This document shows, in pieces, positions 16,731-22,700 of a DNA stretch of 28,972 nucleotides; the first letter of the stretch is position 1, and each line of letters starts with the position of its first letter. The DNA lies in IMG/VR virus record IMGVR_UViG_3300030106_000322, positions 1-28,972 of that record, one strand, 5' to 3'. This DNA comes from a virus. The notes under the pieces were generated by a model. The model had not been told where the DNA came from and did no database searches. It saw nothing but the letters and a program-made list of their open reading frames with translations. The translations under genes were made by a program, and so were the position numbers.

Positions 16731-19700
16731 ATGACTGCGCTAACAGATTTTAGGACTAAGTATCCTCAGTACGACAACATCTCCGACAAAGATCTTGCTG
16801 ATGCGCTTCATAGAAAGTATTACTCAGACCTTGATGTAAATGATTACTATCAAAGGCTAGGCTTAGATCAAGGCACCAACTACCTAGAGCTTACTGGGGA
16901 GATGGGTAAGGGTGTGGTTCGTGGATTTGGATCTGGGTTGCTTTCCGCCGGGGCGGGTCTGGCCGAGCTTGCGGATGTCGGAACAGACTTTATAGGTCTT
17001 GAGGATTTAATAGACAGTGGCAATGAAAACGAGCTTATTCGCTTAGCCAATGAAGGCAAGCAAGCACTCAATGAAAGTCTGGGCGTCGGGGATTTATACA
17101 AAGATAACTACCTTGTAAAGCTTAGCGAAGGTCTGGGCTCAATAGGTTCCTTTTTTGTTCCCGGTCTGGGAGCGGTCAGAGGTGCTTCGTTATTAGGTGC
17201 AGGCGCTAGAGGCGCTGGCATTGCAGGAACCTCTGCCACGGTAGGTGCTGGCGTAGGTGCTGGTGCGTCAGAGCAGGCCGACAGAGTAGCTGCCGCAAGA
17301 GCGAGAGGCGAAGATGTATCTGCCGGTCAGGAAGACTTGGCTATTGCGCTAGGTGGTCTGATTGGATCTTCTGAGGCACTTGCACCGCTATCTATCCTTA
17401 AGAAGATTGGGCGATTCAGAGACCCTGTTAAGAGCGAGGAAGCTTTTAGCGCCGTAACAAGCATGATAAAGGCGGGTGCCTTTGAGGGAGCGCAAGAGGT
17501 TGCAGCTTCTCTTGCTCAGAGCGCCGTCGAAGATGCGGTTTATTCTGACGAGGTCACTTATGGTGACACCCTTTGGGATGACTTTACTGTAGGTGCCGGG
17601 GCTGGCGCTCTGCTTGATGCCATTACAACAGGGGTGTACAGGCGCAGAGCTAACACTATGCGCGAATCTGAGGTTGAGAAGGAGGCCGCGCTTAGGGCGT
17701 CAGAGGTTGAAGCGGCTGAGTCGTTTTATGAAGATGCCGAAAGGGCCAAATCAATTGCAGAAGAGACGGAGCAAGCTCAAAGAAAAGCCGAAGTAGATGC
17801 TGTCTTGGAGGGAGACGAAGCAGCATTCGACGCCAAACAAGCTGCGGCTGCAAGGGAAGAAGTAACGTATGACCCGCTTCAACCGTTTGCTGGGGGAGCC
17901 ATAGACCCCGCAAGCATGACTCCTCGCCAATTGTCTGAAGCTGCGTACAACTACTCAAACCAGCTTGCGAACAATGCGGTCAAGTCTGCTGAAGGGTTCC
18001 CTGATGTAGGCAAGTTTGATGTCGTAGAAGAAAAGACCCCGGAAGGTTCTATATTCAAGGCAGTTCATTCCGAAACTGGACAGCAATTTGGTCAATCCTT
18101 TCGAGAAAGAGAGGGCGCTATTCATTTGATGGCGAATCTTAATCAGCAGATATTTAATCGGAGGGTTAATAGTGCTGTCATTGATTCCTTGGATCTTTCT
18201 CCTGAAGCGTATACCCCGAAACAAGCAGAATCTTTATACGTTATTGGTCAGAAGCTAAACAGACCACAGACATTTTCTATCAATGCAGCCGTGCTTAATG
18301 ACGCTGCAGGTACGGTTCAGTCCCCTAGTTCTCCGTACCAAGAAGACAAAACCATAGATCAGCTTCATACCATTCAGTATGGAGTCCCGCCATATACAGA
18401 CAGGGGAGAGAAGTTATACCGCCCACTGTCTAACCTTACAGCGGCTCAGCAGATTAACTTTGAGCGCAGAAAGAAAGGGCTCCGCGAAGTTGAAGAGTTT
18501 AGTCTTGATGAGGCTAAACAAGTATTGGGGGACAAATACACAAAAGTATTTGACGTTTTGCTGGGGGTTAAAGCGCCCAGTCAAGATCAGATTCTTGAGG
18601 ACTTTGGAACTGTTGGCGCTCGCCTAGCGAAGAGCAGGCAGGAGTATCAGGATGGGCGGAGAACGTTAGCTGAGGCGAAGGAGGTGCTGGTCAGTAAGAA
18701 CATCATGTCTGACGTTGGTTCGCCTGAAGTTAAATACATTTTTGAGAAGATTGTTGGTGAGTCTGATGTAGGAAAGATGACTCCTTCTCAGCGCATGTAT
18801 CTTGTCAACGAGATCAAAAAGTTTCCGGTAGTTCAGGACGCTGTATCGCTTCCTGATTTTAGACCGAAGCCTTACACAAGGACGCAGTATAACGCCGCAG
18901 TTCGACATGTTTCTGAGACTGGTGACGGCACAGTAGAAAACATTGAGAGCATCCTTGGGGATATAGGATCAACCAAGCGGATCAGAACAGTTGCCTCTGC
19001 CCTACGGAAAGATATTCAGAAGGCAGGTCTTATTAATGACCGAGACGAGGTATCTGCTCGTCCTTCGCTTCCTGCCCCGGCAGAGCCATTTGTTCCAGAG
19101 ATAAAGCCTTACGAAGAAAAGGTTTCAGAGGAAGCTAAAAATCTTGAAGATGCGCTGTCAAATGATCTAAAGGGAATGGGTCTGGATGACATCCGGGTCA
19201 GGGTACTGGACACCTTGAAGCGGGGGCCTGTTACCAGAGAGGGAGAGGTAATCCTCACTGGGCGACCAGAGGAAGATATTTCCGCTAGTGTTGAAGGATT
19301 CTTTAAGCCTGCATCTAAGACAGTTTTCCTTGGTCTGGACAGGATTAATGGTGCCGCAAGAGATCAAACTCCTGAAGCAAGGAGACAGGCGCTTGCAGAT
19401 ATTCTGGATCATGAGTTAGTTCATGGCGTAAGAAGCCTAGACCTATGGACAGGCAAGGAGTGGAGCCTTCTTGAGGGCCTAGCAAAGAAAAAGATTGTGC
19501 CGGGTTCTGGCAATGTCACGTTTTATAACGATGCCCAATCCAGATACGAAGATTTGAATGCTGTTTCTCAAATGGAAGAAGCAGTTGCTGACCTGATTAG
19601 ATATGGGCGCAAAGATAAGAAGCTAATTACCGGCAAGCCAAGAAGCTTGGTCGAGAGGATGTACGAGTTCTTTGAAAGGACTGGTAACGCCTTGCGTGGA

Positions 19701-22700
19701 TCTGGCTTCCAGAGTTTTGAAGATGTTCTCACTCGACTTGAAAGAGGCGAGATAGGGGCTCGTCAGCGTGGTGAAATCAGAACACTGCGTGCCTTGGAGA
19801 GGGGGCGGGGCGCTGTACCTGAAAGAGGTATTGGGCTTGAGCGAGACGTACTTACTGACAAGCAAGTATTTACCGGGGCCGGGGTAACTCTTCCCGAGAC
19901 TGAAGAGGAGCAGATTCAGGCTTCAAGGGGTGTAGAGGAGAGAGAGGTTGGTGCCCCTGACACAAGAGTGAGGCCAGAGGTTGCTAATGCTTATCGGCGT
20001 TTTCAAGATGGAGAGATAAGCAGGGAAGATTATGACGCCGTCGTCCTTGGAACAATTAGTGAATATGATTTTGTTCCACGCCCCGCGACTACGCAGGAAA
20101 TGTCTGATGCGTTGGATAAGCCTAAGAAAAAGAAGATTAACCTACCAATAGACGATGGGGCTCCGGTTGGGTTGCGGCTAGATATACATGCCTATACTAG
20201 GCATGGCGTTTGGGTTCCAACAATTCATGCTAAAGGCATGACTTCTCATAGAGCAACGGCTTCAGTCAACAACGCAGATTTTACTCGCATAGCGCAGCCT
20301 ACCGCTCAAAGAATCATTGAAGGAACGGTTCCCGGGACAAGGGGCTACATAGAGAGAGAAAGAATAAGACAAGAACTCCCGGAAAAGGAAGAGGCCCTAA
20401 AGAGGACGAAAAAGTACAAGGAGTCTGACAAAGACACTCAGAGAAGAATGCGGGAAAATTTGCGAAACCCGATGAGAAAATTCGACAAAAATCCTTTCGC
20501 TCGGATTGAGGGTAACTTCGTAAATAGAACTGATGCGGAAAATCAAGCCATAGCAAGAGAGGCTTTAGATTCTCCTGATTGGATTCAGGTTGGCTTCGAT
20601 CCTAGAAGGCACTCTTATTTCTACGACAGGAAAACGGGGGAGCCCGTAACTTTTGCTGAAGAAGTTGTTCAAATTGGTCCGCTTGTTCTTGCAAAAAATG
20701 CCACGAAAAATGTCCGCCCTAGCGGCGATCCGTTTGAGACTCTATACTCAAAGAAGAAAGATGATACACTAGACAAAGATATTACTACGAGTGATTCAGA
20801 AGATGTCTATAGACGACGATTACGAAGACGAGATAGAGACAGAAGAAGACGGCTACAGGGCAGAAGCTTTACGCCGCTTGATGGTGCGCCGGTTATCCAA
20901 GGGGCCACGGGTCCAGACCCCGAGCTTGTCTCAGTTGCAGAAGAATACGCTGAAGAGTACGGAATCCCCTTTGGGAGGCAGAAATCCTACGTCAAGGTAA
21001 AAAAAGATCGGGCGCGTAGGATAGCTAAAGCCTACGATGATATGCGCCATGACCCTAAGAATCCTGCAGTTCTTAAGGCTTATGATGACTTAATAGAGCA
21101 GACTCGTAATCAGTACAAAGCTCTTGTTGAGGCCGGGTACGAGTTTTCTTTCTTTGACTCTGAATCAGATCCATATGATGGCAATCCATTCAACGCGATG
21201 CGGGATCTCCGCAACAATAAACGAATGGCGGTGTATGGAACATACGATGGTTATGGCACTGAGGGATTAACGGGGGCTGAAGTAGAAGACAACCCAATGC
21301 TAAGGGACACTGGACTTCGGTGGAGGGATCAGGAAGGTGTCGAGCAGATTGTTACAGCTAATGATTTATTCCGAGCCGTTCACGATGCGTTTGGCCATGG
21401 GTTGGAGGGCGCTGGATTTAGAGGTCGAGGGGAAGAAAATGCTTGGCAAGCTCATGCTAGATTATTTACCGGGCCTGCGCTTCACGCCCTGACCAGCGAA
21501 ACAAGGGGCCAAAATAGTTGGCTAAATTACGGACCTTATGGTGATACCAACAGAGCGGCTAAATTAGAAGACACTGTCTTTGCTGAACAAAAGACAGGGT
21601 TAATGCCTAGCTGGACTTGGTCAGAAGGCATTGAATACGAAGATCCTATTTTGGAGTCAAGAAGAAGGGTCGGTCCTCAAGAGGATGTTCAGCAAGCCGC
21701 TCAAAAGGCAAAAAGTTTTTCTGAAAGAAATCCAGAAGATACTGTCATGGGGGCTGTAGATAGAACCCCTGAAGTTCAAAAGTCTATTATTGAGCAAGAA
21801 GTTTTTGGTGAGCCGATGGCTTTCCAAACCAAGGGCTACACCTTTGGCGAAAAGTTTATCTATCAGATTGCAGATAAATTTATTGGCCTCAAGAATGTTG
21901 AGGCTCAAATAAATAACTACCGCAGGGGTCTTGGCTTGAGCCCCCTTAAGGCTACAGAGTCTCCTTATGTAGGCGAAGAATCAATTGCTGGCATTGTCGG
22001 CAACAAGATGCGCCGGTTTGAAGAAGACCGGAAAAGACCTCTGGCAAACAAGATAGCCAACTCTGGTTACAGCTTGGAAGAAGTCGATGAGTTTCTGATC
22101 ATGCGCCATGCAATAGAGCGCAATGAAAGAATCGCCGTTCGTGATCCTGAAAGAGATGTAGAAAATAATCCGGGGTCAGGCAAGCTCAAGACCGGACAAG
22201 TTCTTTCTAATAGCTTTGTAAAGCGAAAGATGAAGGAGCGTTATGGTCTGGACTGGGATAGCGCAAACGAGTCATGGGTCGGAGGGAACCCTAGATCCAA
22301 GAAGCTCAATGACATTGCTGCAGACTTGGATCAGATTGTAAATGAAACATTGGACACCACTGTTGAGGGTGGCCTTCTTGATAAGGACACGGCGGAAACG
22401 ATTCGTGGTGCATACAAGTATTACGCCCCCATGCGGGGGAAAGATATTGAAGACGACTACGCCGAGAACGTCATTGTAGGCAGCAGTCTCAGCACAAGAG
22501 GCAAAGAGTTCCTTCGGGCAATGGGCCGGGAGTCAGCCGCTCAGTCTCCCTTGGGGCACATCCTGTTAAATGCTGAGCGTGCAATGACTAGGGCTGCAAA
22601 GAACAAGCAGTTCGGTGAGAGGCTGGTCAACTTGATTCGGGCTAACCCCGATGAAGATTTCTGGAGAGTCATATCCCCGGAAGATCCCCGGTACGCACGG

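Follow-up and report, generated by a model that had tools for sequence, protein, structure and literature searches.

The last gene of the structural module in this virus encodes a giant protein with an internal domain, the HDxxGH domain, that is a member of a real, unnamed, enzyme-like family. We consider it probable that the domain is a self-contained enzyme, dependent on metal and belonging to a superfamily as yet undescribed. It probably represents an unrecognised enzyme family, since its conserved residues are of the metal-binding type and related stand-alone proteins are specified by early genes in T7-like phages and by bacterial chromosomes. The window (the whole stretch of DNA analysed, 28,972 nucleotides) is nearly the whole of a virus record of 29,867 bases; the features discussed are listed in Table 1.

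Table 1. Location of the giant protein, its HDxxGH domain and the conserved motifs in the window
Feature	Residues	Position	Strand	Basis
Giant polyvalent-type protein, 2656 aa		16731..24701	+	ORF list; last gene of structural module
HDxxGH domain	about 1379-1632	20865..21626	+	Boundaries from 119 homologues; AlphaFold2 model
FRAVHDAFGH (Arg1548, His1551, Asp1552, His1556)	1547-1556	21369..21398	+	Four residues 119/119; predicted helix, domain residues 165-179
EENAWQAH (Glu1568, His1575)	1568-1575	21432..21455	+	Both 119/119; next predicted helix, domain residues 187-198
ETRGQNSWLNYGP (Glu1590, Gln1594)	1590-1602	21498..21536	+	Glu1590 117/119, Gln1594 119/119; third predicted helix, domain residues 205-222
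Conserved QK pair past third helix	1620-1621	21588..21593	+	Gln 115/119, Lys 119/119

The carrier protein and its gene neighbourhood

Upstream of the giant gene are matches to tail spike, virion structural, head/packaging and spanin families, and downstream, on the opposite strand, are a Sak-like annealing protein and an exonuclease. From these neighbours, the giant gene closes the structural/lysis block. In the related podovirus MW202722, the homologue is likewise found between lysozyme and tail fibre genes. A Pfam search over the entire protein returned LPD38 (residues 2352-2540, E=9e-44) as the sole match, and residues from about 1703 to 2654 match PHROG 14770/616/10691. The ORF is thus a polyvalent protein (a phage protein of giant size and several domains, one of them an LPD domain), and shares LPD38 and its layout with the large polyvalent proteins described in PMC5512222. 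The HDxxGH domain, in contrast, is not among the domains named for such proteins in the sections of that paper available to us, and neither it nor its family members matched a Pfam or PADLOC model or, meaningfully, an NCBIfam model. The position of the gene, LPD38 and the family context suggest that the giant protein is packed in the virion.

The giant protein also reads HELVH at residues 894-898 (window 19410-19424), followed by Glu residues, with no Pfam match. This is possibly a zincin peptidase module of the kind found in polyvalent proteins (PMC5512222).

Conserved residues

The original prediction located His1551, Asp1552, His1556, Glu1568, Glu1569 and His1575 exactly, as judged by the ORF translation. 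In an alignment of 119 non-redundant homologues, which come from phages and bacteria and in one case from an archaeal MAG, all of them except Glu1569 (89/119) are invariant. The set was also incomplete, since Glu1590, Gln1594 and Lys1621, which had been given no role there or were not mentioned, belong to it. Eleven columns are invariant (Phe1547, Arg1548, Val1550, His1551, Asp1552, His1556, Gly1567, Glu1568, His1575, Gln1594 and Lys1621), most of them charged or polar although the sequences have diverged widely; Asn1544 is kept in 118 of the 119 and Glu1590 in all except two. Only three of the five His, two of the 21 Asp and two of the 23 Glu in the domain are so strongly conserved, and the pattern is therefore specific. 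The end of the domain is supported by stand-alone and C-terminal copies, which stop at about the same place.

Distribution and family membership

Relatives are encoded in 317 viral stretches in a scan of viral contigs, which argues that the motif is not a chance occurrence, and in 200 records of a phage collection. A genome scan gave 98; the peptides used as seeds, NDxFRAVHD or GE[EQ][NA]A[WY][QLR][AS]H, bias it towards the first two motifs. The position of the domain is variable in giant ORFs; elsewhere it lies at or near the C-terminus of ORFs of 450-985 aa, or occurs alone, as in Skog gp166 (291 aa), Sebata gp107 (433 aa) and chromosomal genes of about 220-290 aa. The stand-alone chromosomal copies show that the domain is self-sufficient. 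When compared by 60-residue blocks with 66 large relatives, all of which contain the domain because the set was so selected, the domain shows 59-81% identity, while its flanks align in few of them and are then mostly 30-50% identical. This contrast does not follow from the selection, and is as expected for an active enzyme moved as a cassette.

The only family match of the domain is PHROG 3170 (E=1e-15, best stretch residues 165-223), of which it is a member; other members of the family, bacterial copies included, match it over longer stretches. PHROG 3170, represented by Mycobacterium phage Sebata gp107 and Gordonia phage Skog gp166, contains the same domain; its proteins come from actinobacterial phages, stand alone and measure about 291-433 aa, whereas the copy in the giant protein is an internal module. 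It is annotated as of unknown function and a literature search found no paper naming it, in agreement with the earlier remark that close versions of the motif occur in other phage proteins with no assigned function. No relative turned up in the PDB at the sequence level when it was searched with the domain or with profiles A1, A5 and A6.

Two actinophage loci may be mentioned here. In Streptomyces phage Dagobah (L085, 1438-2300) the tblastn match covers two annotated hypothetical genes, with the domain core in the second (1734-2300); this gene belongs to a group of small genes close to the end of the genome and not to a structural block. In Rhodococcus phage E3, the domain is borne by the structural protein gp205, and a nearby gene (L083, 634-1536) specifies gp202, a member of the histone-deacetylase family (PF00850). 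A literature search found no paper on the structural proteins of phage E3.

A related mini-family in T7-like phages

A group of smaller phage proteins, PHROG 7806, shares the core of the domain. Its member ORF7 of Pseudomonas phage LKA1 reads NAWFRAFHD-LGH...EEE...DTVGQ, and tblastn located the mini-family in 123 records, mostly T7-like Pseudomonas phages. Comparison of its profile with that of the HDxxGH family by hhalign gave a probability of 97% (E=9.6e-11 and 6e-11, 116 columns), with H, D, H, E and E/D in register, which places the two in one superfamily. PHROG 7806 proteins (LKA1 ORF7, phi15 ORF2) have the FRxxHD-xGH, Glu and D/E-T-x-GQ core in common with the HDxxGH family; they differ in being compact (about 160-190 aa), in a motif usually one residue shorter (H-x3-H) and in being specified by early-region genes. 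In phi15 the gene lies in the early region, to the left of that for RNA polymerase.

Among eight aligned members the His, Asp, His and Glu are kept, together with, in most, an Asp or Glu at position 1590, and no His aligns with His1575. The universal candidate core is therefore H-H-E-E/D, comprising His1551, His1556, Glu1568 and Glu1590. The candidate site first proposed, of His residues with a nearby Glu, is by this comparison refined to two His and these two Glu, and a His2-carboxylate2 site is probable from the aligned residues. Since the mini-family was found by structure search and tblastn without the seed peptides, it is free of the seeding bias, and still has H, D, H, E and mostly E/D.

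In Gordonia phage Yvonnetastic a mini-family match (L186, 939-1292; phage positions 96845-97198, minus strand) falls where no gene is annotated. Pseudomonas phage vB_PpuP-Mudajogi has an annotated 2OG-Fe(II) oxygenase (L189, 2601-3314) in its early region, two genes 3' of the mini-family gene.

Predicted structure

Confident AlphaFold2 models were obtained for the domain in the window (pLDDT 93.8, pTM 0.91) and for a Micromonospora form (pLDDT 94.4, pTM 0.91). The motif residues are spread over three consecutive predicted helices (Table 1). The succession of these helices and their lengths suggest that His1551, His1556, Glu1568 and Glu1590 share one level and that His1575 and Arg1548 are on another. 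Foldseek searches of the PDB with both models gave nothing below E = 1; there was hence no significant fold match and in particular none to a known non-enzymatic fold, an outcome in keeping with the original prediction, and no catalytic precedent can be transferred. Against viral models, Foldseek listed family members and then, lower down, small proteins of 160-190 aa, LKA1 ORF7 being one of them.

Comparison with aromatic amino acid hydroxylases

The original prediction noted a resemblance to the 2-His-1-carboxylate iron site of aromatic amino acid hydroxylases. The domain could accordingly be a divergent hydroxylase of this type. It would then carry mononuclear non-haem iron on His1551, His1556 and Glu1590, use a pterin-like cofactor and hydroxylate a small substrate, aromatic or otherwise. 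For comparison, we took nine PF00351 proteins encoded in genomes that contain the HDxxGH family. They share the H-x4-H spacing, the bacterial enzymes reading FHDVFGH or similar, and the predicted elements follow an order, helix-helix-helix-strand-helix-strand-helix(HDxFGH)-helix-helix(E), that by eye resembles the known hydroxylase topology. The profile score was 30.2, as against at most 23.3 for 100 column-shuffled hydroxylase profiles, and the two Foldseek lists include human tryptophan hydroxylase and the phenylalanine hydroxylase of Legionella. These hits, however, have E > 3 and TM of about 0.13-0.21; the hhalign probability is 16-19%, with the motif region alone aligned and a three-residue gap needed within the motif helix; and masking the motif brings the score to background (12.1 and 10.0). 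Moreover, the domain has neither the EPD motif ahead of the first His nor the Trp/Thr around the third ligand, and no Pfam match to PF00351 was found for it or for 15 family members.

What stands of the resemblance is thus the HDxFGH motif with its spacing and, by eye, the order of elements; no significant profile or fold match lies outside the motif. Homology past the motif found no support (0.1% in the global mode of hhalign, masked control at background). We regard the hydroxylase explanation as improbable: that the domain works like a non-haem iron enzyme is possible, and that it is a hydroxylase is not supported.

Peptidase and binding roles

An HExxxH-type reading would make the domain an unusual zincin-like metallopeptidase, processing the giant protein or host proteins. 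Dipeptidyl peptidase III, which has HELLGH, is a precedent for such spacing. Zincin-like peptidases are also common in polyvalent proteins, one set having four residues between the histidines, according to the sections of PMC5512222 available to us. On the other side, the general-base Glu is replaced by Asp in 119/119 homologues and in the mini-family, and no zincin was among the matches listed in either Foldseek search. Furthermore, just two strands in the minimal model reach three residues in length, where a zincin would have the three-stranded sheet, the bacterial copies are found in small-molecule operons, and the giant protein has its separate HELVH motif. A zincin, which lacks support from both the catalytic residue and the fold matches listed, was therefore rejected as highly improbable.

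Alternatively, the domain may be a non-catalytic binder of a ligand, nucleic acid or protein, its conserved residues being structural. It belongs to a family without known activity, and early phage proteins are often binders. Eleven invariant and mostly charged or polar columns are, however, more typical of an active site, as is the conserved operon association with metabolic enzymes, and we judge a pure binding module to be rather unlikely. That the domain is an enzyme is, in our estimation, quite likely, and that it binds metal somewhat less so, though still probable.

Bacterial neighbourhoods

In one bacterial clade of 16 loci, a SufS-like class V PLP enzyme is encoded nearby in 15, homocysteine S-methyltransferase in 11, a methyltransferase in nine and adenosylhomocysteinase in six; cystathionine synthase was left out of these counts owing to a doubtful query frame, its presence in the operon coming from separate evidence. 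An adenosylhomocysteinase-like gene is also close to the domain gene in three alphaproteobacterial loci. A conserved operon (L140, 6729-12346; also L134 and L143) comprises the homologue, homocysteine S-methyltransferase, methyltransferase, adenosylhomocysteinase, a Cys/Met PLP enzyme and the SufS-like enzyme, and has the look of a small-molecule pathway, so far uncharacterised, that runs a methyl cycle of its own.

In the Micromonosporaceae, a divergent N6-methylase gene adjoins the domain gene in all 19 loci, accompanied by a protein kinase (16/19), a UvrD-like helicase (14/19) and Cas3 (13/19). In L136, L144, L150, L152, L164 and others of this family, the stand-alone homologue is situated between the divergent N6-methylase/specificity-like gene and the kinase; UvrD-like helicase, Cas3, Cse1 and CRISPR-repeat-like arrays adjoin. 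This conserved island was not matched as one system.

These associations are reproducible. We read the methionine/SAM-cycle and desulfurase-like neighbours, and the islands of DNA methylase and type I-E CRISPR, as suggesting a small-molecule enzyme with a conflict-related role.

Proposed function

In a metal-dependent enzyme of this kind, His1551, His1556, Glu1568 and Glu1590 on the three successive helices would most likely be the ligands of one or two metal ions, iron or manganese being our first guess and zinc the alternative. Asp1552, Arg1548, Gln1594 and Lys1621, with His1575 in the large form, may shape the substrate pocket. The substrate would most likely be a small molecule or nucleotide rather than a protein; a small-molecule substrate is, in our estimation, slightly more likely than not. 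In the phage, the domain is one of several modules of the giant protein, which would be packaged into virions and enter the cell along with the DNA. An enzyme so delivered would act during the opening minutes of infection, probably altering host metabolism or blunting defence; this phage role is suggested by context.

A link to the SAM cycle is unlikely, albeit worth stating. Perhaps the substrates of the superfamily are metabolites of the S-adenosylmethionine cycle, or some other small methyl/sulfur compound, the enzymes serving in bacteria in metabolism and beside methylase/CRISPR islands, and in phages as early or virion-delivered counter-defence; in this full form we consider the proposal a long shot. 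The SAM-cycle operons, the N6-methylase neighbour in every Micromonosporaceae locus and the T7-like early region are three independent contexts compatible with this proposal, and none is proof. The SAM lyase of phage T3 (PMC7877911) is an analogue of the role proposed.

Hundreds of phage genomes, and bacterial chromosomes as well, encode this domain, which has neither a name nor a fold precedent. Uniting giant virion-type, actinophage, T7-like early and bacterial operon proteins provides small expressible members with which the chemistry can be tested, while the bacterial operons narrow the search for the substrate. Should the domain prove to be an enzyme delivered with the DNA, it would constitute a new activity in the phage arsenal before the first gene is transcribed.
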